Below are positions 8,825 to 34,240 of a stretch of DNA of 34,372 nt, piece after piece. How positions within the stretch are numbered: position 1 is the first letter of the stretch; each line of letters opens with the position of its first letter. The DNA is from Chloroflexota bacterium. GTDB taxonomy: Bacteria; Chloroflexota; Anaerolineae; DTLA01. The notes beneath the pieces are model-generated. The model saw only the letters and a program-made list of their open reading frames with translations. It did not search any database and had not been told where the DNA came from. Where the stretch lies: NCBI GenBank assembly GCA_014360805.1, contig JACIWU010000032.1:1-34372 (forward strand). The letters are read 5' to 3'. Both the position numbers and the translations under genes were made by a program.

Positions 8825-8849
8825 GGCAGTCCGGAATCTGCTTCCCCTG

Positions 8850-8883
8850 AACGCGGGGCCCTTCGCAGGGCCCCGCGTTTTTG
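8850..8883 (+). terminator. rho-independent terminator after the surface-protein gene
   Basis: A 12-bp perfect stem (AACGCGGGGCCC paired with GGGCCCCGCGTT) with loop TTCGCA runs into a T run, 25 bases after the stop. Confidence 0.9.
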
Positions 8884-9048
8884 TTATCCCCGCGGCCTGC
8901 TACGTTTCTTGCTTGCATTGGTTCACAATGTCTTCCATGAAACATGACATGGGTCATATCAAGGATTCATGTAAGGTGGTATGCTATGCACGACTGAACA
9001 AGCACAAACCGTTCAGAATCCTATTGCATCATCAGAAGGGACACTGCG

Positions 9049-11235
9049 ATGACAATAAGACAGTACGCTCACTTTACTGGAGTAGCACTGCTGATACTGG
9101 CGGTTCTGCTCCCCTTGGGTGTCGTGAGCGAGCCGCAGGTTGCGGAGGCGGCCGTCAATGCATTCGGCGTAGCCGACACGAAAGTCATCTCGGCAAAGGC
9201 GCTCACCGATCACGAGTGCGATGACTCCGAGTGGCACTTCGTCATCACCCAAGTGGCGGACGAGGCTGATGCACCTGCATCCATTGAGGTGCGTTGGGCT
9301 GATGGCTCCGTTGAAACCGTACCCCTGTGGAAGTTCACAGGCGGCACCGCGCATTACGCCACGACGCTGCACCTGGATTCGCAGGTGGTGTCGGCAACGG
9401 CCACGATTTACGCGAGTTGGTCGGGACAGTTCAACCTGAGCCATGGGCCTTGCCCGAGCACGGCTACCCCCACGCCGACGAGCACCGCGACGAACACGCC
9501 GACGGCGACGCCGACGGGCACTGCGACGAACACGCCGACAGCGACGCCGACGGGCACTGCGACGAACACGCCGACAGCGACGCCGACGAGCACCGCGACG
9601 AACACGCCGACAGCGACGCCGACGAGCACCGCGACGAACACGCCGACGGCGACGCCGACGGGCACTGCGACGAACACGCCGACAGCGACGCCGACGAGCG
9701 CCGCGACGAACACGCCGACAGCGACGCCGACGAGCACCGCGACGAACACGCCGACGGCGACGCCGACGAAGCCCATAGGCACCGACCCTGCGCCTACGCC
9801 GACCGCAGCACCCACACACACGGCGACGGCCACACAGACGCCTACAGCCACCCCGGAGTGTCCGGGAATTGTCCCTGACCCCTATGAGACGGACAACTCC
9901 GCAACTCAAGCGAAGGCGATTCCCGTGGACGGGTCGCCACAAACTCACAACTTCCACTACAAGAATGATGTGGACTGGATCCGCTTCAACGCGACGGCGG
10001 GCAACGAGTATGTGATTGAGACGTTCGGGCTGTTCGGCGGCGTGGACACGGTGATCGCGCTCTACGGCCCCGACATGACGCTGCTGGCCACGAATGACGA
10101 CGCCGACGGCAAAGCGTCCAAGATCGTATTCACCGCACCTGCCACTGGCGTGTACTTCGTGAAGATTTACGCCAAGAACGTGCACCTGCTCCAGTGCAAC
10201 AACGGGTACAGCGTTCGCGTAACCCAGTTTGCGCCGCAGGGGCTGTGCGCCTGCGTGGACTGGATCACGTTCCTCAGCAACCGCGATGGCAACTGGGAAC
10301 TGTACCGCATGGACATCGCGGGAAACAACGTGATCCGCCTGACGAATGATGCCGGCGTGGACATCGCGCCAGCGCGTTCGGCGGATGGTTCATGGATCGC
10401 GTTCCAGTCCAACCGACAAGGCGTCTGGAACATCTACCGGATAGGCGCTTTCGGCCAGGATCGGCTGCAACTCACCGCCAACGCTGGCAACAACACAGAT
10501 CCCGTGTGGACGGCCGATTGCGGGTCCTCGCAGATCGCCTTCCAGTCGGACAGGGATGGGAACTGGGAGATTTACATCATGGACGAGAGCGGGAACGGTC
10601 AGACGCGGCTCACGTATGACCCGGCGGCTGATGAAGATCCGTTCTGGTCTCCAGATGGGTTCCATGTGGTCTTCCAGTCCAACCGCAACGGCAACTGGGA
10701 TCTCTATCGGGTGGACATCACGGGCACGGACCTAGTTCAACTCACAAGCGAGCGCAGCGACGAGACAGACCCTGCGTACTCGCCGGATGGGCGGTACATC
10801 GCCTTCCGCTCAAACCGCGAGGGGCAGTGGAATGTGTACGTGATGCCTGCCGAGGGTGGCGCGGCCGTCAAAGTGAGCGGGGCGGGTAACAACCTGAACG
10901 CCGTGTGGTCGCCCGACAGCCGCTACCTTGCGTACCAGTCTGACAGAAACGGCCGTAACGACATCTACGTGGCCGAGATTGCATCGGGCACCGAGGTTCG
11001 CGTAACGGATCACCCTGCTGCGGACGAAGCGCCAGCCTGGGACTGCAATAGCGGTCGGGTTGTGTTCCAGTCCAAGCGAGATGAGAACTGGAACCTGTAC
11101 GTGGTGGACATCACGGGCACGGGCACGCCGGTGCAGTTGACCAGCCACCCGCGCATTGACGCCTATCCGATGTGGAACCCTGGCGAGGAAGACGCAAGCC
11201 GCATGGGGTTGGGTGTGCTGCTCGGCAACCGCTGA
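9049..11235 (+). CDS. secreted Thr/Pro-tethered PPC and TolB-type propeller protein
   Basis: A 728-residue protein starting at ATG 9049 with GAAGGG upstream. A signal peptide (about 1-34) precedes an unrecognised N-terminal beta domain (about 35-138). Next comes a Thr/Pro/Ala/Asn tether (about 140-268) with eight 12-residue repeats ([12 protein letters not shown] type). A PPC domain (about 270-395, containing [14 protein letters not shown]) is followed by seven PD40/TolB repeats (about 398-715). The PPC-propeller half is a collinear paralogue of the C-terminus of the 3035-8824 protein, and both end in a similar S-R-M-G tail. It is probably extracellular, with the tether spanning the wall or envelope. 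The binding target is unknown. Confidence 0.8.
9475..9762 (+). repeat. eight tandem 36-bp repeats coding a Thr/Pro tether
   Basis: Eight units of 36 bp begin at 9475, each encoding a 12-residue [12 protein letters not shown] block with Ser, Gly or Ala as the variable residue. The near-identical DNA would allow in-frame length variation by slippage or recombination. Confidence 0.9.
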
Positions 11236-17790: not shown

Positions 17791-17812
17791 AGCGCCCGAA
17801 AGGGCGCTTTTT
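17791..17812 (+). terminator. rho-independent terminator closing the unknown operon
   Basis: The stem AGCGCCC / GGGCGCT has a GAAA tetraloop and is followed by TTTT, 15 bases after the stop at 17776. Confidence 0.85.
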
Positions 17813-17923: not shown

Positions 17924-18133
17924 ATGAGAACGTGGCGCACGACATCTCTCCGGACTTTGGCGCTCACGGCGGTTTTCGGCATGGCGCAGGTTGGGGCGGC
18001 GTTGTTGCTCGCCCAGCGGTTTGAGCCGTATCGCCCGGTGGGCGGACTGGGGCGCGCGCTTCTGGTGGGGCTGGCGCTGCTGTTGGCGGTCGCCGAGATG
18101 CTGGCGGCAGTCGGAGGGGCCAGGGCCGATTAG
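17924..18133 (+). CDS. small two-helix membrane protein
   Basis: A 69-residue protein with two predicted membrane helices (about 8-30 and 40-64) joined by a short RFEPYRPVGGLG loop. It is preceded by a perfect GGAGG six bases before ATG 17924 and followed by a strong terminator, which supports a real gene despite its size. No family is recognised. It lies alone between the unknown operon and the inositol-type operon. Confidence 0.6.
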   Translation: MRTWRTTSLRTLALTAVFGMAQVGAALLLAQRFEPYRPVGGLGRALLVGLALLLAVAEMLAAVGGARAD

Positions 18134-18210: not shown

Positions 18211-18239
18211 TTGACAAATGGGCAGGCCCGTGCTATACT
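18211..18239 (+). promoter_or_regulatory. near-consensus promoter of the plus-strand iol-type operon
   Basis: A perfect -35 TTGACA (18211-18216), 17-bp spacer and -10 TATACT (18234-18239). The operator-like palindrome begins 6 bp after the -10. A promoter this strong fits control by repression. Confidence 0.88.
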
Positions 18240-18244
18240 GTCAA

Positions 18245-18258
18245 TGCAAACGTGTGCA
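18245..18258. promoter_or_regulatory. putative LacI-family operator over the transcription start
   Basis: The site TGCAAACGTGTGCA is a near-palindrome around a central CG, with the GCAAACG half-site typical of LacI-family operators. Its core GCAAACGTGTGC (18246-18257) recurs exactly, on the other strand, upstream of the lacI-type gene at 34227-34238, with the same 6-bp distance from the -10. Confidence 0.82.
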
Positions 18259-18324: not shown

Positions 18325-19476
18325 ATGAAGGGACTCGTGCTTACTGCAGATTGGCAACCCCGGCCAGGGTATCCGCTCTCCGAGTTTGAGAAGGCAACAG
18401 GGAAGGCGATCACCGGTAACGCCGTGTGGCGCAACCCGAAACTCGCCGTCAAGGAAGTCCCGAAGCCCGAGATCGCGCCCGACCAGGTGCTCATCCGCGT
18501 GCGGGCGTGCGGCGTGTGCGGGTCCGACATGCATTTCTACGAGACCGACGCGGACAACTATATCCTGTATCCGGGCCTGACCAAGTTTCCCAGCATCCTC
18601 GGCCACGAGTTCTCGGGCGAGATTGTGGAAGTGGGCAGCGCCGTCAAGGACCTCGTCAAGGGCGATTTCGTTACCGCCGAGGAGATGATCTGGTGCGGGC
18701 ACTGCCGACCGTGCCGGGATGGCTATCCCAACCAGTGCAAGAATCTGGAGGAGATCGGGTTCACCATTGACGGGGCGTTCGCCGAGTACATCGCGGTTGG
18801 GGCGAAGTACTGCTGGAAACTGAACGCTCTGCGCGAGCGGTACGATGACGACAAGATCTTTGAAGCCGGGGCGCTGGTGGAGCCTACCTCGGTGGCGTAC
18901 AATGGCATCTTCGCGCGGGCGGGCGGGTTCAAGCCTGGGGCCTATGTGGCGGTGTACGGCGCGGGGCCTATCGGCCTGGCTTCCATTGCCCTCTGCAAGG
19001 CGGCAGGCGCGGCGAAGGTCATCGCCTTTGAGGTCTCGGAGGCCCGCCGCGAACTGGCCAAGAAAGTTGGCGCCGACTACGTGTACGACCCGCGGGCGGT
19101 CAAGCCGAGCGAGGTAGTGATGGAACTCACGGGCGGCGAGGGGGCCGACATGCACGTGGAAGCGGCCGGCGCTCCCTCCAAGACCGTCCCGGAGATGGAA
19201 GCGTCTATGGCGGTGAATGCCCGTATCGTCCAGATTGGGCGCGCCGCCGAGCGAGTCCCGATGTACCTGGAGCATTTCCAGACTCACCACGCCCAGGTCT
19301 TCGGCGCGCAAGGGCATTCGGGCAACGGCACGTTCCCGAACGTCATCCGATTGATGGCGTCGGGGCTGATAGACATGACGCAGATTATCACGGCCCGCTA
19401 CGACCTGGCGAACGTTGTGGACGCCATTCGGCAGTCCACGAGCCGCCAGGACGGCAAGGTCATGGTGCGCATCTAG
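18325..19476 (+). CDS. iolM: scyllo-inosose 3-dehydrogenase-like zinc dehydrogenase (IolM-type)
   Basis: A medium-chain zinc dehydrogenase of 383 residues. In the Thermotoga pathway the IolM enzyme oxidises 2-keto-myo-inositol (inosose) with NAD to a diketo-inositol. Catalytic-zinc residues are Cys65 (GVCGSDMH) and His94-Glu95 (GHEFSG). Structural-zinc Cys are 124, 127, 130 and 138 (CGHCRPC). The Rossmann motif is GAGPIG. From memory of T. maritima TM0412, the unusual N-terminus (LVLTADWQPRPGYPLSEFEK), the AEEM-WCGHCRPC stretch and QGHSGNGTFP near the C-terminus match it closely. The start is ATG 18325 after AGGAGG. It is the first gene of the operon, behind the operator. Orthology is recalled, not computed. 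Confidence 0.82.
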   Translation: MKGLVLTADWQPRPGYPLSEFEKATGKAITGNAVWRNPKLAVKEVPKPEIAPDQVLIRVRACGVCGSDMHFYETDADNYILYPGLTKFPSILGHEFSGEIVEVGSAVKDLVKGDFVTAEEMIWCGHCRPCRDGYPNQCKNLEEIGFTIDGAFAEYIAVGAKYCWKLNALRERYDDDKIFEAGALVEPTSVAYNGIFARAGGFKPGAYVAVYGAGPIGLASIALCKAAGAAKVIAFEVSEARRELAKKVGADYVYDPRAVKPSEVVMELTGGEGADMHVEAAGAPSKTVPEMEASMAVNARIVQIGRAAERVPMYLEHFQTHHAQVFGAQGHSGNGTFPNVIRLMASGLIDMTQIITARYDLANVVDAIRQSTSRQDGKVMVRI

Positions 19477-19483
19477 CGAGGCT

Positions 19484-19523
19484 CTGGGCGGTTCCGGCGG
19501 GGCCGCCCAGTCTCGTTCTTTTC
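19484..19523 (+). terminator. stem-loop with T-rich tail inside the operon (possible attenuator)
   Basis: CTGGGCGG pairs with CCGCCCAG across an 11-base loop (19484-19510), followed by the T/C-rich tail TCTCGTTCTTTTC. It lies between iolM and the next gene on the same strand, so partial termination or 3'-end protection is more likely than full termination. Confidence 0.45.
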
Positions 19524-19536
19524 GGTGAGGGGCTGC

Positions 19537-20277
19537 ATGGAGATCATCGTGCTGGGGTCGGGGACGGGGTATCCAAACCCGCGCCGCGTTCCGCCTGGCC
19601 TGCTGGTGCGCGTGGGCGAGTGCCCGCTGCTGTGTGACGCAGGCTCGGGCACGCTGCACCGGCTGCTGCGGGCGGGCGTGGATGTGGGCGCATTGGAGTA
19701 CGTGCTGTTCACGCATTCGCATTCGGACCACTGCGCCGACCTGATTCCCATGCTCCAGGCCTTCGCCCTGATGCGCCGGACGCGGCCGCTGCATGTGATC
19801 GCGTCGTCGGCGTATCTGGGCTGGATGCGCGCGATGGTGGATTTGAACCCATGGGCGCGGCCGTCTCTGTACGAACTCCGCGAAGTGGACATAACACGCG
19901 GACAGTTCGCGGGCCCCGGCTGGACGGTTGACGCCGCGCCGTCGGACCACACGCCGGAATCGCTGGCGTTCCGCTTGCACGCGGAGGGCAAGACGGTTGT
20001 GTACACGGGCGACGCCAGCCCAGGGCACCACCTCGTCTCGTTCGCCCGCGAGGCCGACTTGCTCATTGCCGAATGCTCGTTCCCCGACGAGTCGGCCGAA
20101 CCGTATCATCTCACGCCGACCAGCGCCGGCACGCTAGCCGAGGAGGCGCGGGTCGGGCATCTCGTTCTCACCCATTTCTATCCGCCGTGCGACCGCGTGG
20201 ATGTGGCGGCTGTCGCGGCGAAGGTCTATTCGGGCCCAATCACTGTGGCGCAGGACGGTCTGGTTCTGCGCATCTGA
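19537..20277 (+). CDS. MBL-fold metallo-hydrolase (RNase Z/AtsA-like group)
   Basis: A 246-residue metallo-beta-lactamase fold protein. The zinc motif FTHSHSDHCAD places His60, His62, Asp64 and His65. Later ligands are probably the TGDAS Asp and the LTHFYP His. The N-terminus (IIVLGSGTGYPNP) and the overall length resemble the short ribonuclease Z-like hydrolases that act on diverse esters and lactones. I chose ATG 19537 because the GTG at 19525 overlaps the Shine-Dalgarno GAGGGG. It sits between the IolM-like gene and a second dehydrogenase, so a lactone or ring-opening hydrolysis in the same pathway is plausible. The substrate cannot be read from sequence. Confidence 0.82.
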   Translation: MEIIVLGSGTGYPNPRRVPPGLLVRVGECPLLCDAGSGTLHRLLRAGVDVGALEYVLFTHSHSDHCADLIPMLQAFALMRRTRPLHVIASSAYLGWMRAMVDLNPWARPSLYELREVDITRGQFAGPGWTVDAAPSDHTPESLAFRLHAEGKTVVYTGDASPGHHLVSFAREADLLIAECSFPDESAEPYHLTPTSAGTLAEEARVGHLVLTHFYPPCDRVDVAAVAAKVYSGPITVAQDGLVLRI

Positions 20278-20293
20278 AGGAGGTGCGAATCGT

Positions 20294-21319
20294 ATGGAAA
20301 AGACCATGTTGGCCGCCGTGTTTGAAGGCCAGGGCAAACTCAGCCTGCGGGAAGTTCCTGTGCCGAAGGTAGCGAATCCCGACGACGTGCTGCTGGAGGT
20401 GGAAGCGGCAGGGGTCTGCGGCACCGACTTGCACATCCTGGAGGTGCCGCCCGGACATCCCGCGACGCCCGGCGCCATCCTGGGACACGAGTATGTGGGG
20501 CGGGTGCTGGAGACGGGCAGCGCGGTCTCCACGGTGCAGCCGGGCGACCGCGTGGTGGTGGCCCCCAACCTGTACTGCGGAATCTGCGGGCCGTGCACCA
20601 GCGGGCGGCCCAATCAGTGCGAGCACTTCACAACCCTGGGAATCTACCTGAACGGCGGATTCGCCCGTTACAACGTCGCGCCGGAGCGAGCGCTGTTCAA
20701 GGTGGCGCCGACTTTGCCCCCGCAGGAGGCGGTGTACGTAGAACTCCTCTCGTGCGTCGTCGGGGGCACGGAGAAGGTGCGCTTGCAGCCGGGGGAAACG
20801 GTCGCCATCCTGGGCGCGGGACCGGTGGGCCTCATGTTTGAGTTGGTGTTCAAGGCGGCGGGCGCGGGCAAGATCATCATGACCGACATCGCGCCCTATC
20901 GCCTGGACCACGCGCGAAAACTGGGCGCCGATGTGGTGGTGAACGTCAAGGAGCAGGACCCCGTCGCCGTTACCCGCGAGGCGACGGACGGGCGCGGGGT
21001 GGACGTGGTCGTGGATGCGGTCGGTTCGCTGCTGCCCCAGGCGATAGAGCAGGCAGCGGTGGGCGGCAAGATCGTGCTGTTCGGCATGAACCAGCAGGCT
21101 TACCCGCAGGTGCACCAGTTTGACATCACGCGCAAGGAACTGACTGTCATGGGCACATACATCGGCATCAACACGTTCCCCAAGGCGATTCGCATGCTGG
21201 AGAGCGGCGTGGTGAAGCCGTCGGCGCTGACGACGCACACCCTGCCCCTGGCGCGCATCCTGGATGGCATTGCCGCTCTGCGCGCGGGCGAGGGCATCAA
21301 AGTGGTGGTTACGCCGTAG
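20294..21319 (+). CDS. zinc-dependent medium-chain dehydrogenase (threonine/sorbitol dehydrogenase-like)
   Basis: A 341-residue NAD(P)-dependent sugar or polyol dehydrogenase. Catalytic-zinc residues are Cys42 (GVCGTDLH) and His65-Glu66 (GHEYVG). Structural-zinc Cys are 95, 98, 101 and 109 (CGICGPC). The Rossmann motif is GAGPVG. It starts at ATG 20294 after AAGGAGG, 16 bases after the MBL stop. It differs clearly from the IolM-like protein, so it is not a recent duplicate. Possible jobs are oxidation of another inositol isomer or reduction of a keto-acid intermediate. I assign no symbol. Confidence 0.85.
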   Translation: MEKTMLAAVFEGQGKLSLREVPVPKVANPDDVLLEVEAAGVCGTDLHILEVPPGHPATPGAILGHEYVGRVLETGSAVSTVQPGDRVVVAPNLYCGICGPCTSGRPNQCEHFTTLGIYLNGGFARYNVAPERALFKVAPTLPPQEAVYVELLSCVVGGTEKVRLQPGETVAILGAGPVGLMFELVFKAAGAGKIIMTDIAPYRLDHARKLGADVVVNVKEQDPVAVTREATDGRGVDVVVDAVGSLLPQAIEQAAVGGKIVLFGMNQQAYPQVHQFDITRKELTVMGTYIGINTFPKAIRMLESGVVKPSALTTHTLPLARILDGIAALRAGEGIKVVVTP

Positions 21320-21351: not shown

Positions 21352-22338
21352 ATGAGCACGCAAAAATGGGAACTGCCCCCCAAGGGCGGGCACATGGATT
21401 TGCCCACGCAAGTCTATTTGCAGAATATGACCTGGAAGCAGATTGAGGAGCGCCTGAAGAAGAACGACCTCATCATCGTTCCCGTCGGCTCCACCGAGGC
21501 GCACGGCCCGCACGCCTGCCTGGGCGAGGACACGTTCCTGGTTACCCGCATGGCCGAGGCCGTCGCCCTTCGCACGGGCTGCACCGTGGCCCAGCCGATC
21601 TGGTACGGCTCGCATCCGTATCATCACATGGGCATGCCCGGAACCATCATCGTCCCCGAGGAGATCTTCGTGGGGCAACTGAAGGCGGTGATGGCCGGGC
21701 TGTGGAACATGGGCTTCCGCAAGCAGATTCTGCTCAACGGCCACGGCCAGGAATACGTCATCCCCACCGCCATTCACCAGTTCGCCAAGACGTACCAGGT
21801 GCCCGGCGTGTTCGTCAACCTGAACTGGTACCACGCGATCCCCGATCACTTCAAGACGAAGGCCGAGGGTGGCCCCTACGAGACCAACTTCATCCATGCG
21901 GACGAAGTGGAAACTTCTTGGTCGCTGGTGCTGTTCCCCGAGTTGATGGACATGAGCGCCGTGGTGGACACGCAGCCCACGAGTTTCCTGGGCGACAAGA
22001 TGGCCAAGCACGTGGACAAGGCCGGCAACCTGCTCCACAGGCCCATCGCCTGGTACGGGCAGGTGGGGCTGGGGCCGATTGAGGTGGCGGCCTACAAGCC
22101 CGGCGTGGTGGGCAAGGCCAGCCTGGCCGACCCGAACAAGGCCAAGCCCGGCGTGGAGGCGCTGCTGGACTACATGGTGGAGTTGGTGAACGACATCATG
22201 GAGCGATTCCCCGCAGGGGTGCTGCCGCCGATTGACCAGATCACCCAGCGGCGGCGCGACGAGATTGAAGCCGCCATCAAAGGCCCGCTGGCCGAAGGCG
22301 GTTGCAGCATCTACGCGCTGGCCTATCCGCCAGCCTAG
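21352..22338 (+). CDS. iolN: creatininase-family hydrolase, likely 3-dehydro-scyllo-inosose hydrolase (IolN-type)
   Basis: A 328-residue protein of the creatininase superfamily of metal-dependent amidohydrolase-like enzymes. Likely metal ligands are Glu49, His51 and Asp60 (GSTEAHGPHACLGED) and His131 with Glu134 in LNGHGQE, where creatininases usually have NGHGGN. In T. maritima, TM0413 (IolN) hydrolyses the diketo-inositol made by IolM to 5-keto-L-gluconate; I recall it as a creatininase-family member. The neighbours iolM and iolO support this role. The start ATG 21352 has AAGGAG 7 bases upstream. If the context were misleading, it could be another creatininase-like amidase. Confidence 0.75.
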   Translation: MSTQKWELPPKGGHMDLPTQVYLQNMTWKQIEERLKKNDLIIVPVGSTEAHGPHACLGEDTFLVTRMAEAVALRTGCTVAQPIWYGSHPYHHMGMPGTIIVPEEIFVGQLKAVMAGLWNMGFRKQILLNGHGQEYVIPTAIHQFAKTYQVPGVFVNLNWYHAIPDHFKTKAEGGPYETNFIHADEVETSWSLVLFPELMDMSAVVDTQPTSFLGDKMAKHVDKAGNLLHRPIAWYGQVGLGPIEVAAYKPGVVGKASLADPNKAKPGVEALLDYMVELVNDIMERFPAGVLPPIDQITQRRRDEIEAAIKGPLAEGGCSIYALAYPPA

Positions 22339-22351
22339 CGACCCGGCAACA

Positions 22352-22382
22352 CGAGGCCGGCAATCGCCGGCCTCGCCTTTTG
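22352..22382 (+). terminator. GC-rich hairpin with short T run inside the operon
   Basis: CGAGGCCGGC pairs perfectly with GCCGGCCTCG around an AATC loop and is followed by CCTTTTG. It lies between the IolN-like and IolO-like genes in the same direction, so it may attenuate expression of the two downstream epimerase genes. Confidence 0.6.
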
Positions 22383-22411: not shown

Positions 22412-23221
22412 ATGAAGAAAGCCATCGTCGTTTCCACCCACGCGGCGCAATTCAACGCGGTCGCATTCAAGGGCGATCTGGAGGCCAACCTGGCGCGCAT
22501 CGCGTCTCTGGGCTATGATGGCGCCGAACTGGCCATCCGCGACCCGCGCGCCGTGGACGCGGAGGCCCTCGCCGACCTGATTCGCAAGTACGGCCTGGAA
22601 GTGCCTGCCATCGGCACGGGCCAGGCATGGGGCGAGGAGGGGCTATCGTTCACGGATCCGAACCCCGTCGTGCGGCGCGCTGCCGTGGAGCGGGTGAAGA
22701 GCCACGTGCCGGTGGCGGCCAAGTTCGGCGCGGTCATCATCATCGGCCTGCTGCGGGGCATCGTGAGGCCGGGCGTGGCGCACGCGCAGGCGTGGGCCTG
22801 GATGACCGAGGCTCTGCGCGAGTGCGCGGGGGCGGCGCTGGCGGCGGGCGTGAGGATTGCGGTGGAGCCGATCAACCGCTACGAGACCACGCTTGTGAAT
22901 ACCGCCGCCGACGGCCTGGCCCTGCTGGAGCAAGTCGGGATGCCCAATCTCGGCCTGCTCCTGGATACGTTCCACATGAACATTGAGGAGCCCGACATCC
23001 ACAGGAGCATCCGCGCGGTTGCGCCCCGACTGTTCCATTTCCACGTGGCCGACTCCAACCGCTGGTATCCGGGGGCGGGCCACCTGGATTTCCCGGCCAT
23101 CGTGGCGACGCTGCGCGAGGTGGGGTACGACGGCTACATCTCGGTGGAGGCGATGCCCGTGCCCGATGGGGACACCTGCGCCGCCGAGGCCATCAAGGCG
23201 ATGCGCTCCTGGGGGCTGTAG
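22412..23221 (+). CDS. iolO: 5-keto-L-gluconate epimerase-like TIM-barrel enzyme (IolO-type)
   Basis: A 269-residue xylose isomerase-like TIM barrel. In T. maritima, IolO (TM0416) converts 5-keto-L-gluconate to D-tagaturonate. The likely metal and catalytic residues are Glu152 (VEPINRYE), Asp185 and His188 (LLDTFHMNIEE), His211 (HFHVADSNR) and Glu246 (SVEAMP). From memory of TM0416, the segments NAVAFKGDL, ELAIRDP, IGTGQA and VIIIGLLRG match it closely. The start is ATG 22412 with GAGGAG upstream; longer in-frame starts lie inside iolN. The stop is 15 bases before the UxaE-like start. Confidence 0.82.
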   Translation: MKKAIVVSTHAAQFNAVAFKGDLEANLARIASLGYDGAELAIRDPRAVDAEALADLIRKYGLEVPAIGTGQAWGEEGLSFTDPNPVVRRAAVERVKSHVPVAAKFGAVIIIGLLRGIVRPGVAHAQAWAWMTEALRECAGAALAAGVRIAVEPINRYETTLVNTAADGLALLEQVGMPNLGLLLDTFHMNIEEPDIHRSIRAVAPRLFHFHVADSNRWYPGAGHLDFPAIVATLREVGYDGYISVEAMPVPDGDTCAAEAIKAMRSWGL

Positions 23222-23236: not shown

Positions 23237-24796
23237 ATGGAGGAGTTGCTGGTTCGGCTGCTCAAGGCGCCCGCGGTAGGCTACGTGCAGGAGGACTACC
23301 GCGCCGGCCTGGCGGAAAGGCTAGGCCTTCTCGTCGGGGGCGACGTGTACGCGCAGGCCATCGCGGCCTCGCCAGACGGCCTGTTCTTCCTGTGGCGCGG
23401 CGGCGGAGGCAAGCGGCTGGCCTGGCTGCGCACGGAGCCGGGGCGGGAGATGGCGGGGGACATCCATCCGATTGACTGGGGCGGGCACGTGCTGTATCTG
23501 ACCACGGCCCCCCTTTCTCACGACAACCTGAAGGTCTTGCGGCGGCATCTGCCCTTCCTGTCGCCGCGCGTGGCGGGGCTGCGCGGCTCGTTCGGGTTCG
23601 GCGACCGCATCGGCGTGGCGACGCCCGGGCACGTGCGCGCGGCGCGGCGGAGCGGCCTGGTGCCGTTCTTCGCGCAGCAGTCCATCCGCGAGATGGCCCG
23701 CACCGAGCGCACGCCGCAAGGGGTGATGGACGACGCCATCTGGGGCGTGTTCCAGGCGGGCTGGGATAGGGATTTCGGAGCCGACGCGGATCATCTGAAG
23801 ACGCCCGAGGATGTGGCGGCTTGCGCGGCGGCAGGGTACACCATGTTCACCGTGGATCCGGGCGATCACGTGGACAATCAGGCCGACGTGGCGGACGTCC
23901 CCGCGCTGCGGGAAAGGCTGGAGCGGGCGCCGTGGGGCGCTCTACGCACGTCGTGGCGCGCGCTGGAGGGGCGCTACTCGGGCAAGTCCTGGCGCATAGA
24001 GGCGGGCGTCGTGGTGGAGTTTGACGACGAGCGGCTGGCGCGCGCGGTCGTCAAGTACGGGCGGGCGATCGCCCACACGGCATCGCTGTACGAGCACGTG
24101 CGCGATTGCATGTCGCCGCGCCCCTTTGAACTGGAGATGTCGGTGGACGAGACCGAGGCCCCGACGACGCCCGAAGAGCATTTCTTCATCGCGCAGGAAC
24201 TTCAGCGCCTGGGCGTGGAGTGGGTGAGTCTGGCCCCTCGGTTCGTCGGCAGTTTCCAGAAGGGGATTGATTACATCGGCGACCTCAAGGAGTTTGAGAG
24301 GTCCTTCGCGGCGCACGCGGCCATTGCCCGTCGCGTGGGCCCCTACAAGATCAGCATCCACTCCGGCTCGGACAAGTTCAGCATCTACGGCATCGCGGCG
24401 CGCCACACGGAGGGGCTCCTGCACGTGAAAACCGCCGGCACCAGTTATCTGGAGGCCCTGCGGGTGGCGGCGCACAAGGCCCCCGACCTGTTCCGCGAAA
24501 TCTTGGGGTTTGCGAAGGGGCGCTTTGAGCACGACCGGGCCACCTACGCCATGTCGCCTGCGCTGCGCAACGTGCCCGACCCCGACGCGCTCGCGGACGG
24601 GCAGTTGCCGGGCCTGCTGGAGCAGCCCGACGCGCGCCAGGTGCTCCATGTTACCTTCGGCTCGGTGATGACTCACAGGGAGGGGGGCGAATACCGCTTC
24701 CGCGACCGGCTGGTGGCGATGTTGCTGGCGCACGAGGAGACGTACTACCACGCTCTGGAGCAGCATTTCGTCCGCCACTTTGAGGCGTATGGGTAG
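23237..24796 (+). CDS. uxaE: tagaturonate/fructuronate epimerase (UxaE family)
   Basis: A 519-residue protein that matches my memory of the UxaE family (T. maritima TM0440), which epimerises D-tagaturonate to D-fructuronate and so feeds hexuronate catabolism. Distinctive segments are SFGFGDRIGVATPGHVRAA, FFAQQSIREMARTERTP, DDAIWGVFQAGW, FGADADHLKT, ELEMSVDETE and YKISIHSGSDKFSIY. A cluster of Asp, Glu and His fits metal-dependent epimerisation. I chose ATG 23237 because the GTG at 23231 overlaps the GGGGAGG ribosome site. Being last in the operon, it converts the IolO product. Confidence 0.82.
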   Translation: MEELLVRLLKAPAVGYVQEDYRAGLAERLGLLVGGDVYAQAIAASPDGLFFLWRGGGGKRLAWLRTEPGREMAGDIHPIDWGGHVLYLTTAPLSHDNLKVLRRHLPFLSPRVAGLRGSFGFGDRIGVATPGHVRAARRSGLVPFFAQQSIREMARTERTPQGVMDDAIWGVFQAGWDRDFGADADHLKTPEDVAACAAAGYTMFTVDPGDHVDNQADVADVPALRERLERAPWGALRTSWRALEGRYSGKSWRIEAGVVVEFDDERLARAVVKYGRAIAHTASLYEHVRDCMSPRPFELEMSVDETEAPTTPEEHFFIAQELQRLGVEWVSLAPRFVGSFQKGIDYIGDLKEFERSFAAHAAIARRVGPYKISIHSGSDKFSIYGIAARHTEGLLHVKTAGTSYLEALRVAAHKAPDLFREILGFAKGRFEHDRATYAMSPALRNVPDPDALADGQLPGLLEQPDARQVLHVTFGSVMTHREGGEYRFRDRLVAMLLAHEETYYHALEQHFVRHFEAYG

Positions 24797-25325: not shown

Positions 25326-26219
25326 TTACCGCAACGCCCTCACCGGCAGCGTCTCGGCAAGCGCCGCGATTTCCGCCAGCGAACGGCGGAGCGGGCCGGG
25401 CTGCGACAGTTTCAGCGATGTGGCGGCGGCAGCGAAGCGGCAGGCTTCGTCCGGCTCGCGCGTCAGGCGGCGGGCCAGGTACGTGGAGATGCACGTATCG
25501 CCGCGCCCGGTGCGCCCGCTCAGGTTCTCGGCGACGAACGGCGACTGGTACACCTTCCCCTCGGCCCACACGGTAACGCCCGAAGCGTGCGTGAGGACGA
25601 TTTCCTTCGGCCCGTAGGCGGCGACGAGCGGGAGCGCGGCGAGCGGGTCGGTCTCGCCCGTCAGCGCCTCGGCTTCGGCCTGGTCCAACTTCAGCGTGTG
25701 GACGAGCGCCAGCCCCTTGCGCCGCTCCGGCCACTCTTCGGTGGGCAGGTCGTTGCCGCGCGGGACGCGCACGAACCCCTGGATGTCCAGCGCGATTTTC
25801 GCCTTGCGGGCAAATCGTTTCACCAAATCCAGGGATACAATGCCGGCCATGATGGGGCCGATGAACACGTACTGGCCGTTCCAGCGGGGGAGGTCGTCCA
25901 GGTCAAAGAGACTGGCGTGGCCGATGGGATGGCAGATGCGCCTGTCCATGTCGGCGGTGTTGTAGATGTTCTCAATGCCCGAGGTCTGGGGCGCCGGCTG
26001 GGCGTACACGGCGATGCCTTCCGCCTTGAGTTCATCCAGGAGGCCGAAGTCCGACGGGTGCAATCGCGTGATGACGCCGGTGCGGATGCCGAGCCGCGCC
26101 ACGGCGATCGCGCCGTAGTACACCGAGCCGCCCGAAGCGACCACGCGCTCCTGGCCGTGAACGAGGACATCTTTGGCGAAGTCGCCGACGAAGAGGATAT
26201 CAAATTGGGGCTGTGGCAT
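25326..26219 (-). CDS. PfkB-family carbohydrate kinase, TM0415-like
   Basis: A ribokinase/PfkB-family kinase of 297 residues. The ATP-site anion-hole motif is GRTGRGDT (near 235), where most PfkB enzymes have D-T-x-G-A-G-D. Other motifs are ASGGSVYYGA near the N-terminus, DIQGFVRVP, LTHASGV and the C-terminal QPGPLRRS. From memory these match T. maritima TM0415, the kinase inside the inositol cluster TM0412-TM0416, including its unusual GRGD. Phosphorylation of inositol or a pathway sugar acid is likely; the substrate is not certain. ATG 26219 is 3 bases downstream of the ATPase stop. Confidence 0.78.
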   Translation of the reverse strand: MPQPQFDILFVGDFAKDVLVHGQERVVASGGSVYYGAIAVARLGIRTGVITRLHPSDFGLLDELKAEGIAVYAQPAPQTSGIENIYNTADMDRRICHPIGHASLFDLDDLPRWNGQYVFIGPIMAGIVSLDLVKRFARKAKIALDIQGFVRVPRGNDLPTEEWPERRKGLALVHTLKLDQAEAEALTGETDPLAALPLVAAYGPKEIVLTHASGVTVWAEGKVYQSPFVAENLSGRTGRGDTCISTYLARRLTREPDEACRFAAAATSLKLSQPGPLRRSLAEIAALAETLPVRALR

Positions 26220-26222
26220 ACG

Positions 26223-27311
26223 CTACCTCACGGCGCAGATGAGGCTTTCCAGGATAATGCGGCATCGCTCGTAGGGGAGGTGCACGTACACGGCCTGGCC
26301 GTTTTCAAACCGCTCCGCGCCGTGCGTCTGCACGCGGATTTCCACGCCCCGGACGTCTACGCGGTAGTCAAACTTGTCGCCCAGGTAGGTGCTCTTGGCG
26401 ATGAGGCCGGCAACCTCGTTGGGGCCTTTGTCGCCCTCGGCGATGCGCAGGCGGACATCGTTGGGGCGGATGAACAGGAGCACGTCTAGCCCCACGTGCA
26501 CCGATTCCACGGGCGGGACGGCGATGTGTTCGCCCTGAACGTCCAGCACGACGCGCTCGCTCTCCACCGCGACGACCTTCGCGGGGATGAAGTCGGAGAG
26601 GCCGATGAAGTCGGCCACGAACTTGGTGGCGGGGTGGTCGTAGATTTCCGCCGGCGTGCCCACCTGTTGCACGCACCCCTTGTTCATCACAGCCACCCGA
26701 TCCGACAGCGCCAGGGCCTCTTCCTGGTCGTGGGTAACGTACACCGCGGTAATCCCCAGGCGCTTCTGCAGGTCTTTGATCTCAAACCGCATCTCTTCGC
26801 GCAGTTTGGCGTCCAGGTTGGAGAGCGGCTCGTCCAGGAGCAGGACTTTGGGGCGGTACACCAACGCCCGCGCCAGGCCCACCCGCTGCTGCTGGCCGCC
26901 GGAGAGTTGCCGGGGGTAATGCTTCTCGTATCCTTCCAGCCGCACCAGTTTGAGTGCGTCTTTCACCATGGCCGCGCGCTCGGCCTTGTTCATGCCCCGA
27001 ATCATGAGGGGGAATTCCACGTTCTCAAACACCGTCATGTGCGGGAATAGCGCGAAGTTCTGGAACACCATGCCGAGTTCCCGACGGTGGGTTGGCACGT
27101 CCGTAACGTCCTTGCCGTCAATGAACACGCGGCCCTCGTCGGGAATGTTCTGGCCGGTGATGCAGCGGAGGGCGGTCGTCTTGCCGCATCCGCTGGGGCC
27201 GAGCAGCGTCATCAATTCGCCCCGCCGGATGCGAAGGGTTACATGGTCATTGGCGACGATGTTGCCATAGCGTTTGGTTACATCCACCAACTCAATCATC
27301 CAGTTGGACAT
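26223..27311 (-). CDS. ABC transporter ATPase (iron/polyamine/phosphonate importer type)
   Basis: The ATP-hydrolysing subunit of an importer, 362 residues. Walker A is GPSGCGKTT (about 39-47), the Q-loop FQNFALFPHM, the signature LSGGQQQR, Walker B VLLLDEPLSNLDA and the H-loop VTHDQEEA. A C-terminal TOBE-type domain (about 245-360) contains FIRPNDVRLRI. The architecture is that of FbpC/PotA, different from the tandem-ATPase importers of classic sugar uptake. The start is ATG 27311 with GGAGG five bases upstream. Confidence 0.92.
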   Translation of the reverse strand: MSNWMIELVDVTKRYGNIVANDHVTLRIRRGELMTLLGPSGCGKTTALRCITGQNIPDEGRVFIDGKDVTDVPTHRRELGMVFQNFALFPHMTVFENVEFPLMIRGMNKAERAAMVKDALKLVRLEGYEKHYPRQLSGGQQQRVGLARALVYRPKVLLLDEPLSNLDAKLREEMRFEIKDLQKRLGITAVYVTHDQEEALALSDRVAVMNKGCVQQVGTPAEIYDHPATKFVADFIGLSDFIPAKVVAVESERVVLDVQGEHIAVPPVESVHVGLDVLLFIRPNDVRLRIAEGDKGPNEVAGLIAKSTYLGDKFDYRVDVRGVEIRVQTHGAERFENGQAVYVHLPYERCRIILESLICAVR

Positions 27312-27341
27312 GAGGACCTCCGATGTGGGTATCTTTGAATC

Positions 27342-28178
27342 TTACACGCCCTTGAAGCCGCCCACCAGTTTTTCCGGCTGCACCTGGCGCTGAATCATGA
27401 ACAGCACGAAGAGCGAGGGGATGATCAGGATCATGGAGAGGGCGCTGGTTACTTCCCAGTAGCCCTCGCCGACGGCCAGGTAGGTGCGCACGGGCAGGGT
27501 GATGGTCTTCGGGCCGTAGGTCATCAGGGTCAGCGTGAACTCGTTGTACGAGGTCGTGAAGGTGAAGATGATGGACGACAGGATGCCGGGCATGACCAGC
27601 GGGAGCGTGATATGGAAGAACGTGCGCAGGTTGTTGGCACCGCACACGCTGGCCGCTTCCAGCACGCGCTCGTCCAAGCCCTCAAACGTGGACGAGAGCA
27701 CCAGGATAGCATAGGGCGCGCAGATGGCCACGTGGGCGATGGCGACGCCCAGGTGGGTGTCGATCAGGTGCAGGCGATAGAAAATCTGGGCCACGCCCAG
27801 AGCATAGGCGATGGGCGGGATCATTCGGGGCAGGAGAATGGTTGACATAATGGCCTCTTTGCCCGGGATTCTCCGCCGGCCCAGCGCCCAGCCCGTGGGG
27901 ATAGCGATCATCGTGGAGATGCCCACGGCGATGCCTGCAATGACCAGCGTATTCCGCAGCACCTCTGGGATGTTGGTTACGGTGATGGCCCAGGTGTACC
28001 AGTCCAGCGTCAACTCCGGCGGGAACCACAGTTTGCCGAACCAGTTGCGCCCCACGGATTTCAGCAGGATCATCAGGAAGGGCGTGGTAACCCAGAGAAA
28101 GAAGCACAGTAAGAACGTATAGGCCAGCAGTTTCTTGGCGTTGAGCAAGGCTTTCAGGTATTGGCGCAGGATTCTCAT
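27342..28178 (-). CDS. ABC transporter permease, second subunit
   Basis: A 278-residue inner-membrane permease with six predicted helices. The cytoplasmic EAA loop, which docks on the ATPase, reads LEAASVCGANNLRTFFHITL then PLVMPGI. It belongs to the PotC/FbpB-type binding-protein-dependent permeases. I chose ATG 28178 because it overlaps the stop of the upstream permease by ATGA, showing translational coupling; the longer in-frame start lies inside that gene. Confidence 0.9.
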   Translation of the reverse strand: MRILRQYLKALLNAKKLLAYTFLLCFFLWVTTPFLMILLKSVGRNWFGKLWFPPELTLDWYTWAITVTNIPEVLRNTLVIAGIAVGISTMIAIPTGWALGRRRIPGKEAIMSTILLPRMIPPIAYALGVAQIFYRLHLIDTHLGVAIAHVAICAPYAILVLSSTFEGLDERVLEAASVCGANNLRTFFHITLPLVMPGILSSIIFTFTTSYNEFTLTLMTYGPKTITLPVRTYLAVGEGYWEVTSALSMILIIPSLFVLFMIQRQVQPEKLVGGFKGV

Positions 28179-29032
28179 GATGCCGTCGGTCTCCTTAGCA
28201 CGCGCATGTAGAGGGTGAGAAACGCCAGTTGGAGCAGTGCCATGACAACGGCCATGGCGCTGGCGGCTTCCCACCGCGCCGGCGTGAATACCTCAATCTG
28301 CTTGTAAATCTGCACGGCCAGCGGGCGGTAACTGCCGCCGGTGATGAGCGGGATGCTGAACGCGCCGAAGGCCGCCATGAACGTCAGCACCGAGCCCGCG
28401 AGGATGCCCGGCATGATGAGGGGAATCACGATGTGGCGGAGCACCTGCCAGGGACTGGCTCCGGCCACCCGGGCCGCCTCCTCAAACGCGGGGTCAAGCC
28501 CCTCCAGCGTGGACAGCGTAGTAACGGCCGTGTACGAGAAATAATGCCACACGTAGAAGATGACCAATCCCGTGAGCGTGTAGTTGATCTTGACGGGCTG
28601 ATCCACCACGTGCAGGCCCTGCATTAGAAAAAGGTTGAGCCAGCCGCGGCTGCCGTAGAACAGCAGCAGTCCCAATGCGCCCACCAGTCCGGGGACTGTG
28701 ATGGGAACCAGGATGGTCAGGCGGAACAGCCGATGCCCCGCGAGTTTCTGGCGCAGGAGCAGCGTCAGCGGCACGGACAGCAGAATGGACAGCACGGTGC
28801 ACGCGATGGCCAGGAAGAACGTCAGCACGATCACCTGGCGCGAAGAAGCCTGTCCCAGAAAACTCGTGTAGTGCTGAATCGTCCAGCCCGTGGTGAGCCC
28901 TTCGGGGCGGAAACTGCGGACGACGGTTACCAACATCGGGTAGAAGAACAGGCCGAAGAAACTGGCAAAGCCCGGCAGGAGCATCAGCAGGCTCATTAAT
29001 CCGTAACGGTGCTTCTTTAAGAAAGAAGCCAT
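28175..29032 (-). CDS. ABC transporter permease, first subunit
   Basis: A 285-residue permease with about six membrane helices, beginning with LLMLLPGFASFFGLFFYPML. The EAA motif is EEAARVAGASPWQVLRHIVI then PLIMPGI. It is of the PotB/FbpB type and pairs with the downstream permease. The gene starts at ATG 29032, 98 bases after the binding-protein stop; that gap holds a strong hairpin. Confidence 0.9.
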   Translation of the reverse strand: MASFLKKHRYGLMSLLMLLPGFASFFGLFFYPMLVTVVRSFRPEGLTTGWTIQHYTSFLGQASSRQVIVLTFFLAIACTVLSILLSVPLTLLLRQKLAGHRLFRLTILVPITVPGLVGALGLLLFYGSRGWLNLFLMQGLHVVDQPVKINYTLTGLVIFYVWHYFSYTAVTTLSTLEGLDPAFEEAARVAGASPWQVLRHIVIPLIMPGILAGSVLTFMAAFGAFSIPLITGGSYRPLAVQIYKQIEVFTPARWEAASAMAVVMALLQLAFLTLYMRVLRRPTAS

Positions 29033-29082
29033 GATCCTCGGTGCCTCCTTGATTTGGATGCGGTCGCGACACGCCCGAGAAC

Positions 29083-29113
29083 GGTCTGGGCGTCCACGCG
29101 GGACGCCCAGACC
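29083..29113 (-). promoter_or_regulatory. strong intercistronic hairpin between binding protein and permease
   Basis: GGTCTGGGCGTCC and GGACGCCCAGACC form a perfect 13-bp stem around a 5-base loop. No T run follows on the minus strand, so it is not a standard terminator. In ABC importer operons such hairpins often stabilise the upstream binding-protein mRNA. Confidence 0.65.
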
Positions 29114-29130
29114 TCACGGGAACTCACCCG

Positions 29131-30363
29131 CTATTTGGGCAGGAGTACCTCAGGGCCCTTTTCCTTGACCCAGTCGGTGAACTCTTTGTTGTTCAGCCGC
29201 ACGCGCACCTTCTCAATCTCGCCCCACTTCGGGATCTTGCGCCACACGACATCGGGGATCTTGTCCTCAATAGCGGTGCCGGTGTACTGCCACATCTCCG
29301 TGATGAGGCGGATCTGCTGGTCGTCCGACAGCAGGTAGTTGATGACCTTCATGGCCACCGTCTTGTAGGCGTCGGGGATGTTGTCCGGGATGGCCAGATA
29401 GCCGTCGGAGCCGGCGGGCATGCCGTCGCTGAGCGAGCCGGCCGCGATGGTGGGTGGCATGGTGCCTTGGCTAATGGACCACAGCGAGTAGTCCATGGCG
29501 TAGCACGCGATCCAGGTGTCGCCGGCGTTGAAGTCCTCAAACATGTTGGTTGGCTCATTGGCGATCTTGCAGTAGGTGATGAAGTCTTTCAACTTGGCGA
29601 TGGCGTCCTGGTACTCCGGCTTCTTCTCCAGTTCTGCCAGCGGGATGGGGGTGCCATCGGGGTTCGTCAGCGGCACGAAGGCGTTGACGAAGGCGTAGGG
29701 CAGGCTGCGGCCCGAGCCGGACTTGGAGTCGGGGCGCATCCAGCCGATGTGGCCCTTCCACTCGGCGCGGCGCTCGTAGAATTCCTTCCACGACTTGGGC
29801 GGATCCTTCACGTATTCGGTGTTGTAGATGAGGGTGTACTGGCTGCGCCAGTAGAGCGCGCCGGTTCCCTGGATGTCCACGCCCTGCGCCGTCTTCAAGT
29901 ACTCCTCCGGGCACTTGGCCAGGTTCGGGATCACGTCCAGCCGGTCGGGGTACAACTTCACCAGCGGGATGTTACTCTTGATGAGGTTGGCCAGGTCATC
30001 CGGCTTCATGAACAGCAGGTGGATGTCGCCCTTGCCCGGCTCCCAGGCCTTCATGCGCTCGGCGACCTCAGCGCTCTTGGAGACCACGTAGTTTATCTTG
30101 ATGCCCAGTTGCTCCTGGACGGCCGGGAGGATTCGGGTCTTCCAGTACAACTGGAAGTTGGCGCCGGAGTTGGTATCCACGACGGTGATTTCGGTGGGCA
30201 GCGGTGGCGGCGGCGTCGCGGTTACGGGTACGATGACCGTTTCCTTGACGGGTACCGGGACGGTCTCCTTGACGACCACCGGCGTGGGCGTCGGTCCGCA
30301 GGCCGGAAGCACGGCCGCAGCGACCAGCAACAGGGTTACGACCGCAAACAGTGTCTTACGCAT
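29131..30363 (-). CDS. extracellular solute-binding lipoprotein of the importer
   Basis: A family 1 extracellular solute-binding protein of 410 residues. A lipoprotein signal ends in the lipobox VLPAC (Cys22), followed by a Pro/Val/Thr/Glu tether (about 24-58, with ETVPVPVKETVIVPVTATPP) and then the two-lobed binding domain (about 58-410). The domain resembles spermidine, iron and 2-aminoethylphosphonate binders rather than the ribose-type sugar binders. GGGGAGGAG lies just upstream of ATG 30363. Given its operon, the ligand may be an inositol, inositol phosphate or sugar acid; this is inferred from context only. Confidence 0.85.
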   Translation of the reverse strand: MRKTLFAVVTLLLVAAAVLPACGPTPTPVVVKETVPVPVKETVIVPVTATPPPPLPTEITVVDTNSGANFQLYWKTRILPAVQEQLGIKINYVVSKSAEVAERMKAWEPGKGDIHLLFMKPDDLANLIKSNIPLVKLYPDRLDVIPNLAKCPEEYLKTAQGVDIQGTGALYWRSQYTLIYNTEYVKDPPKSWKEFYERRAEWKGHIGWMRPDSKSGSGRSLPYAFVNAFVPLTNPDGTPIPLAELEKKPEYQDAIAKLKDFITYCKIANEPTNMFEDFNAGDTWIACYAMDYSLWSISQGTMPPTIAAGSLSDGMPAGSDGYLAIPDNIPDAYKTVAMKVINYLLSDDQQIRLITEMWQYTGTAIEDKIPDVVWRKIPKWGEIEKVRVRLNNKEFTDWVKEKGPEVLLPK

Positions 30364-30471: not shown

Positions 30472-31455
30472 TCAGGCTTCCAGCGGCAGGCGAACGGGCT
30501 TTCCCGACCTGGCGCTGCGATACACCGCCTCGGCCAGTTCTACCGCCCGATAGCCATCCAGGGCTTTCACTGGCGGGAAACCTTCTCCCATGACGGCGTC
30601 TACAAAGAGCTTGTCTTCCTCCACGTAGCCCCACTTTTCGGCAGTGGACAGTTGGAAGCAGTCATGGGTGATGATCTGCTGATTCAGCCCGGGGCTGTAG
30701 GTTACCTTTTCCATCTCCTCGGTTACGATGGACGAATGCTCGCCATAGAGTTCTATCCGCTCAAACGGGAAGGCCCAGGAACTATGCGCGCACGACGAGA
30801 ATACGGCGTAGTGCCCGTTCTCAAAGGTCAGGATGGCCGAGAAGTCGTCCAGTTCCTTGTACACATTGGCCTCGGCGCGGCAGTACACCTCTACCACTTC
30901 GCCCATCAGCCAGCGGATCATGTCCAGCAGGTGGATGGTGGATTCGTACAGGAAGCCGCCGGTGAGGGCCGTGTTGCCGACCCAGGGCGGGGTGAGCAAC
31001 TCGCCGCGATTCATCTTGACGTTCGCGGAGAGCGGCGCGAATCCCTGCGCGATGCGATCCTTGGCGAATTTGTACACGGGGGCAAACCGCCGATTGAAGC
31101 CGATCTGATAGATGAGCCCTGTGCGTTCCACAGTGTCCAGAATCTGACGCGCCTCGCCCAGGTCGGTGGCCATGGGCTTCTCGCTGAAGACGTGGATTCC
31201 TCGCTCCAGCGCCGCCAGGACGGGTTCCAGGTGCAGTGCGTTGGGCGTCGTAACGTACACCGCATCGGGCTTCTGCGCGAAGATCTCGTCTAGGGATGTG
31301 CAGGCTTCGCATTGGTACTCCGCGGCAGCCTTCTCGGCGTTGGCGGGGACGATGTCGCCAATGGCGACAATCTGCACTCGTTCGTCCTGGCGCAGGTTCT
31401 GGGCGTGAACCCGACCCATGTAGCCTGCTCCGATGATGGCGATCCGAACGGTCAT
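30472..31455 (-). CDS. Gfo/Idh/MocA oxidoreductase, likely inositol 2-dehydrogenase (IolG-like)
   Basis: A 327-residue NAD(P)-dependent oxidoreductase. The Rossmann motif is GAGYMG (about 9-14), followed by the family motif EKPMA (Lys93) and the catalytic His175 in ESTIHLLD. In this pathway it would oxidise myo-inositol to 2-keto-myo-inositol. Where classic IolG proteins have an Asp four residues before the catalytic His (D-M-T-I-H), this one has Glu171, so substrate or stereochemistry may differ. The start is ATG 31455 with GGAGGAG 8 bases upstream; a longer frame reaches into iolI. I leave the symbol empty for that reason. Confidence 0.82.
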   Translation of the reverse strand: MTVRIAIIGAGYMGRVHAQNLRQDERVQIVAIGDIVPANAEKAAAEYQCEACTSLDEIFAQKPDAVYVTTPNALHLEPVLAALERGIHVFSEKPMATDLGEARQILDTVERTGLIYQIGFNRRFAPVYKFAKDRIAQGFAPLSANVKMNRGELLTPPWVGNTALTGGFLYESTIHLLDMIRWLMGEVVEVYCRAEANVYKELDDFSAILTFENGHYAVFSSCAHSSWAFPFERIELYGEHSSIVTEEMEKVTYSPGLNQQIITHDCFQLSTAEKWGYVEEDKLFVDAVMGEGFPPVKALDGYRAVELAEAVYRSARSGKPVRLPLEA

Positions 31456-31490: not shown

Positions 31491-32324
31491 TCACTGAACC
31501 CGAAAGCCGGCCCTCGTGAGCAGGGCTACGGTCTTGGCGCGAGCGTCGGCGGCAAGTTCGTGGGCGGGCCTCTTCCAGTATGCCGGCCTGAAGAGTTCTA
31601 TGGAGCACAGGCCGTCAAAGCCAATTATACGCAGGTTGTTCAGGATATCAAGCAGCGGAATCACGCCCTCCCCGGGCAGCAGGCGGTGAGCGTCGGTCAG
31701 CGTAGCCCGAGGTTTGTCCTCGGCGTCGTTGATGTGGAAGATGTAAATCTTGTCCGGCGCGACGGGCAGGATGGAGTCCAGCGTGGAGCCGCCCGCGTAG
31801 AAGTGGAATGTGTCCAGCACCAGGCCCACGTTGGGCAGGTTGGCCTCGCGGACGATTTCCCAGCACTGGGCGAGCGTGGAGACGGAACAATCGGCCTGGC
31901 CCAGGAACTCGTAGGCGAGTTTGATGTTGTGCGCCGCGGCAATCTGCGCCAGGTCGCCCAGGACGCGGACGGACTCGCGCTTGATGTCGTCCCACGTGGC
32001 GCCAGGGGGCGTGGGGCTTGGCACGACCACGATCTTGTCGCAGCCGATGGCCTCCGCGATTTCGCTGTAGCGGCGGCACTGCTCGCGAATCTCCCGAAAC
32101 CCGTCGCCCTTGAACGTGATGTGCTCAATGGAGTTGATGCTGACGGGCTGTATCCCGTTGGCCGCGAACAGCGCGCGCAGGTCATCGGGCGTGTGGCTTT
32201 GCAGGTAGTGGTTCATCTTGCCGGCCCAGATTTCCAGCACCTTGAACCCCGCGCTGCTGGCCGCGGCGATGTCTCCTTCCAGCGTTGCTTTCATCGTCGT
32301 AGCGCCGTTGAAGCCCAGAAGCAT
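31491..32324 (-). CDS. iolI: 2-keto-myo-inositol isomerase (inosose isomerase, IolI)
   Basis: A 277-residue xylose isomerase-like TIM barrel that interconverts 2-keto-myo-inositol and 1-keto-D-chiro-inositol, linking the myo- and D-chiro-inositol routes. Metal residues Glu139 (YEFLG), Asp171 (LDTFHFYAGGS), His197 (FHINDAED) and Glu243 (SIELFRP) are each three positions before Glu142, Asp174, His200 and Glu246, which I recall for B. subtilis IolI. Other shared segments are the N-terminal GFNGATT and LPGEGVIPL. ATG 32324 has GGAGG five bases upstream; the TTG at 32336 overlaps this site. Confidence 0.85.
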   Translation of the reverse strand: MLLGFNGATTMKATLEGDIAAASSAGFKVLEIWAGKMNHYLQSHTPDDLRALFAANGIQPVSINSIEHITFKGDGFREIREQCRRYSEIAEAIGCDKIVVVPSPTPPGATWDDIKRESVRVLGDLAQIAAAHNIKLAYEFLGQADCSVSTLAQCWEIVREANLPNVGLVLDTFHFYAGGSTLDSILPVAPDKIYIFHINDAEDKPRATLTDAHRLLPGEGVIPLLDILNNLRIIGFDGLCSIELFRPAYWKRPAHELAADARAKTVALLTRAGFRVQ

Positions 32325-32348
32325 ACGAGCCTCCAAAGGATGTATGGG

Positions 32349-33158: not shown

Positions 33159-33192
33159 GGGTGGCCTCCTTGCCAGGGTGGTTGTGCCTGGT

Positions 33193-34194: not shown

Positions 34195-34226
34195 CGCAAC
34201 CCTCCGAACTCGCGCGTGGCAGGGGC

Positions 34227-34240
34227 GCACACGTTTGCAA
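34227..34240. promoter_or_regulatory. putative LacI-family operator over the regulator's transcription start
   Basis: GCACACGTTTGCAA on the plus strand contains, on the minus strand, the same 12-bp core GCAAACGTGTGC as the site at 18246-18257. It begins 6 bp after the minus-strand -10, the same spacing as in the plus operon. Confidence 0.82.

Follow-up and report, generated by a model that had tools for sequence, protein, structure and literature searches.

The zinc dehydrogenase encoded directly upstream of iolN in a Chloroflexota operon, here called DH2, is in our view a zinc-dependent MDR inositol dehydrogenase which makes the inosose for IolM, and the MBL-fold hydrolase encoded beside it (here MBL) an accessory class II phosphodiesterase. 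We give this reading as a whole a probability of roughly 60%. DH2 would then probably be an unrecognized first-step enzyme of inositol use. We infer the reactions of both proteins from gene order, protein families, co-occurrence, phylogeny and the conservation of metal ligands.

Gene order and operon signals

The window, that is, the whole stretch of 34,372 bp that was analyzed, corresponds to contig C32; the genome comprises 3.24 Mb, is 96% complete and has Chloroflexota MAGs as close relatives. On its plus strand the genes are ordered iolM-MBL-DH2-iolN-iolO-uxaE. IolM (scyllo-inosose 3-dehydrogenase, 18325–19476; NF041097, 580 bits, cut-off 450), IolN (3-dehydro-scyllo-inosose hydrolase, 21352–22338; NF041098, 527 bits, cut-off 245) and IolO (5-keto-L-gluconate epimerase, 22412–23221; NF041099, 355 bits, cut-off 300) all score above the curated cut-offs and are encoded in one operon, which identifies the IolM/IolN/IolO pathway. 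The tagaturonate epimerase gene uxaE follows at about 23237–24796 (PF16257, 525 bits). MBL (19537–20277; Lactamase_B_2, with the fold of the YhfI-type class II phosphodiesterases) and DH2 (20294–21319; ADH_N and ADH_zinc_N, the proposed inositol dehydrogenase) were both confirmed as real genes.

The inositol pathway of Thermotoga maritima, as cited in PMC3750489, comprises IolG, IolM, IolN and IolO (Rodionova et al. 2013). With full-score IolM, IolN and IolO as well as UxaE, the operon in the window follows the same route to tagaturonate. It differs in having the MDR-type DH2 where Thermotogae loci have the Gfo/Idh enzyme IolG, in the extra MBL gene and in a LacI-type regulator, whereas T. maritima has the ROK-family IolR. 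We suggest that DH2 carries out the first step and would convert myo-inositol, or a different isomer, into the scyllo-inosose (2-keto-inositol) on which IolM acts. The diketo ring is next opened by IolN to give 5-keto-L-gluconate, from which IolO forms D-tagaturonate and UxaE finally D-fructuronate. DH2 would take over the job of the Gfo/Idh-type IolG.

The preliminary description had placed MBL and DH2 as native members of the operon, and this is borne out. The intergenic gaps are 60 bp (iolM-MBL), 16 bp (MBL-DH2) and 32 bp (DH2-iolN), the ribosome sites are clear for DH2 and iolN and weaker for MBL, and the exact six-gene order is retained in both congeners compared. All genes are under purifying selection, with dN/dS values of 0.02–0.07 for IolM, DH2 and IolN (DH2 alone 0.03–0.06) and of 0.15–0.24 for MBL, which thus evolves faster than its neighbors. 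Ahead of iolM we found, on the plus strand, a sigma-70-type promoter (TTGACA-17-TATACT, 18211–18239, 11 of 12 matches) that is kept in both congeners, followed by a LacI-family-type operator, TGCAAACGTGTGCA (18245–18258). This operator has one mismatch to TGNAANCGNTTNCA, a match of which 0.59 instances are expected by chance, and it is identical in both congeners; a resembling site is located ahead of the LacI-iolM genes in two further loci (L159 and L197). Plus-strand hairpins resembling terminators are present in the iolM/MBL gap (19484–19510, kept in all three genomes, the window's and those of L054 and L055) and in the iolN/iolO gap (22352–22375, kept in the congeners). Since the first hairpin separates MBL from iolM, MBL may be expressed at a lower level than iolM. 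A small hydrophobic open reading frame of about 69 aa (17924–18133) lies between a terminator-like site (17791–17808) and the iolM promoter.

DH2 as a regular component of many IolN loci

According to the preliminary description both genes interrupt the expected iolM-iolN order. This applies to MBL, a lineage-specific extra, and not to DH2. The four-gene order is conserved only within the genus; beyond it, iolM-DH2-iolN recurs without MBL in several phyla, namely in Thermoflexus, Anaerolinea, several Bacillota MAGs and one MAG each of Aerophobetes, Planctomycetota and Eremiobacterota. DH2 is therefore no insertion but belongs to the usual gene set of many IolN loci, and the histories of MBL and DH2 are separate. 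In Bathyarchaeota the order is iolN-iolM-DH2-iolO.

In Thermotogae loci, which are ordered iolM-iolG-iolN, a Gfo/Idh-type IolG fills the slot held elsewhere by DH2. Within 4 kb of iolN, a DH2-type gene is found in 27 of 80 IolN loci, a Gfo/Idh gene in 13 and both together in none. This mutual exclusion gives a Fisher P of 0.003, or of 0.0007 in well-flanked loci with IolM, both values being uncorrected for relatedness among loci that are phylogenetically non-independent. A Thermoflexus-type genome consisting of a single contig (G210) has the order iolM-DH2-iolN-uxaE and, over the whole genome, no credible IolG. Its sole Gfo/Idh match sits in a glycan-type neighborhood and scores best as UDP-GlcNAc 3-dehydrogenase (216 bits as compared to 117 bits for IolG). 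The absence of IolG was judged by this whole-genome count and not by the TIGR04380 cut-off, which would be unfair because even in a locus of the Thermotogae type (L137) the IolG-like gene reaches no more than 187 bits.

Two further observations concern the IolN loci. In L139, L147, L150, L156, L158 and L087 iolN is directly followed by the gene of another kind of zinc dehydrogenase, about 386 aa in length; it falls outside the DH2 and IolM clades and is a third dehydrogenase type at IolN. In one Lokiarchaeota and one Nitrososphaeria MAG the IolM match is split in two (L146, positions 2659 and 7103; L128, positions 5808 and 6159), which could mean that the gene is broken, that it contains an insertion or that the assembly is faulty.

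DH2 family and phylogeny

DH2 is a zinc MDR protein: the catalytic Cys/His/Glu residues (C42, H65, E66 and E150) as well as the structural-zinc cysteines C95, C98, C101 and C109 are invariant in 17 orthologs. With IolG (TIGR04380) it has in common the proposed reaction and the operon position. The superfamilies, however, are unrelated, as DH2 contains only the ADH-type domains with their conserved zinc ligands and gives no match to TIGR04380. A search with the fold retrieved only generic zinc alcohol dehydrogenases. To IolM (NF041097) DH2 is linked by the MDR superfamily, by cyclitol ketone chemistry and by the likely use of NAD; DH2 is probably NAD-dependent. The IolM model is the best NCBIfam match of DH2, although at 224 bits far under the cut-off of 450. 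In a tree of 53 rows all DH2 orthologs, whether from bacteria or archaea, group in a single clade (support 100/99), which is distinct from IolM and from LgoD, Tdh, RspB, GatD and YdjJ of Escherichia coli.

Within this clade, a subclade from another Chloroflexota family (45–50% identical) is located in classical iol loci. IolE-like genes adjoin its members (155–167 bits, cut-off 290), IolD is encoded nearby (774 and 828 bits, cut-off 715), and IolB directly downstream (280 bits, cut-off 205). IolD is encoded in the subclade genomes, in one of them in two pieces; neither the window's genome nor the Thermoflexus-type genome has an IolD at full score. Inosose is the sole metabolite common to both downstream routes, that is, the IolM/IolN route and the classical iol route. 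From these known pathways, the first oxidation is favored as the reaction of DH2. The proposal in the preliminary description of a second entry substrate can be kept in part for DH2, which occupies the iolG slot and groups in the tree with dehydrogenases encoded in classical iol loci.

Could DH2 instead be a second, paralogous inosose dehydrogenase, which shares or varies the IolM step, for example with another inosose isomer? Its MDR family and the IolM model as best match (224 of 450 bits) point in this direction, and so does the separation of the DH2-iolN pair from iolM in several genomes: L101 and L103–L106 keep DH2-iolN as a pair, with an IolM above the cut-off elsewhere in four of these five genomes. 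The persistence of this pair also speaks for our own reading. Nevertheless a full-score IolM is present beside DH2 or elsewhere in nearly all genomes searched, and the clade members in classical iol loci have downstream enzymes that use inosose itself. We consider such a role improbable.

A little less probable still is that DH2 acts on sugar acids, as an L-gluconate or L-galactonate 5-dehydrogenase which supplies IolO and UxaE with 5-keto-L-gluconate or tagaturonate. There is a precedent in LguD of Luteolibacter LG18, which makes 5-keto-L-gluconate that is used by an IolO-type epimerase (PMC12632266), and LgoD of E. coli carries the annotation L-galactonate oxidoreductase. Yet LgoD falls outside the DH2 clade in our tree, whose 53 rows do not include LguD, DH2 occupies the iolG slot, and clade members are found in IolE/IolD/IolB loci, where L-gluconate plays no part. 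We therefore rejected this activity as the main reading of DH2 and retain the oxidation of inositol.

Replacement of IolG by DH2 is clear only in some lineages, because the subclade genomes also hold IolG-like Gfo/Idh genes (about 290–346 bits). In genomes with an IolG-like gene DH2 would not replace IolG but be an added dehydrogenase, perhaps with another isomer as its substrate; where such a gene is also present, as in the window, it probably serves a second isomer. Our literature search, mostly outside subscription journals, found neither an MDR-type inositol dehydrogenase nor a characterized enzyme of the DH2 clade.

The MBL-fold protein

Among the 80 IolN loci only two, both of the same genus, carry an MBL homolog, and we therefore rejected the idea that MBL belongs to iol loci in general. 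In a phylum search the nearest homologs outside the genus were 44–45% identical; they belong to one other Chloroflexota family and are likewise encoded directly after iolM, followed in one genome by a glycogen synthase-like gene. The identity of all remaining homologs did not exceed about 36%.

Lactonases are found within the MBL superfamily, and the preliminary description had linked MBL to the handling of lactones or esters. A lactonase or esterase for a lactone side product would fit the position directly after iolM in two families. The nearest relatives in sequence and predicted structure, by contrast, are YhfI-type cyclic-phosphate phosphodiesterases, RNase Z and other phosphodiesterases. 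The AlphaFold model of MBL (pLDDT 94.9) matches YhfI of Bacillus subtilis best (TM 0.88), followed by RNase Z, PNGM-1 and Apyc1, and there is no known lactonase among the best 50 PDB matches. Furthermore, E179 and H191, positions common to YhfI and RNase Z, are kept. A lactonase or esterase is thus very unlikely.

MBL is not the RNase Z of this genome, an alternative that had been raised at the outset. It covers only positions 1–149 and 200–274 of the 302 in the RNase Z profile, the central part being missing, and a full-length RNase Z is encoded elsewhere (contig C3, 20771–21667; 281 bits, just under the cut-off of 293).

We place MBL among the YhfI-type class II phosphodiesterases, as it has the MBL fold without the RNase Z insertion, the HxHxDH motif and the other metal ligands. 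The ligands H60, H62, D64, H65, H138, D159, E179 and H213 are invariant in 28 homologs. Fold, metal ligands and length are those of YhfI, Rv1339 and Apyc1; the differences are an identity of only about 26% and the location after iolM, and the phosphodiesterase activity is predicted from the modeled structure. In our reading MBL is accordingly a lineage-specific accessory class II phosphodiesterase, perhaps acting on a cyclic phosphate of inositol. An inositol phosphate diester as substrate is a reasonable but unsupported guess.

At least as likely as this substrate is that MBL is a cyclic-nucleotide phosphodiesterase which tunes catabolite control, or else a passenger gene that has nothing to do with inositol. 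Together we regard these two options as quite possible, though somewhat short of even odds. YhfI prefers cAMP and cGMP (PMC9117128), and Rv1339, which was modeled on YhfI, acts as a phosphodiesterase on cyclic nucleotides (PMC9293780). In addition, nearly all other IolN loci lack MBL, and the gene evolves faster and sits behind a terminator-like hairpin. Against both options stand the position directly after iolM in two separate families and the purifying selection.

Remaining genes of the window and a second iol cluster

A convergent cluster on the minus strand encodes a LacI-family regulator (33193–34230), two TIM-barrel proteins, an IolG-like Gfo/Idh dehydrogenase (30472–31455; TIGR04380, 192 bits, cut-off 355), an ABC transporter consisting of an ATPase, two permeases and a solute-binding protein (26223–30363) and a PfkB-family kinase (25326–26219; PF00294). 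In other loci, kinases of the same family are encoded next to iolN and iolO, and the transporter set recurs with 71–84% identity in L113, an IolN locus that has neither MBL nor DH2. The two TIM-barrel (AP_endonuc_2) proteins adjoin the IolG-like gene (31491–33239, minus strand), and one of them pairs with IolG-like genes in other IolN loci (L114, L119 and L120). PD40 beta-propeller repeats characterize two large, probably exported proteins encoded at 3035–11235 of the window (1929 and 728 aa); the larger one also has Ig-like, PKD and thioester domains.

The same genome has a second iol cluster on contig C25 (18941–22033; L057), in which a Gfo/Idh gene accompanies iolN (532 bits) and iolM (537 bits). 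Beside these three genes there is neither a DH2-clade gene nor an MBL gene.

Implications

It is conceivable, though we hold it only tentatively, that an unrecognized MDR zinc-type inositol dehydrogenase family of several bacterial phyla, Bathyarchaeota and Asgard archaea replaced the Gfo/Idh-type IolG at the entry of the IolM/IolN pathway in many lineages, and that in two Chloroflexota families the operon in addition acquired a phosphodiesterase which frees inositol phosphate from its cyclic phosphate. A large genome survey searched only for the classical iolBCDE cluster, and its inositol dehydrogenase genes were iolG1, iolG2, iolU, iolW and iolX from Salmonella and B. subtilis (PMC9430895). 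If DH2 is indeed a zinc-type inositol dehydrogenase, genomes like that of Thermoflexus would gain a complete inositol route which is missed by such searches.
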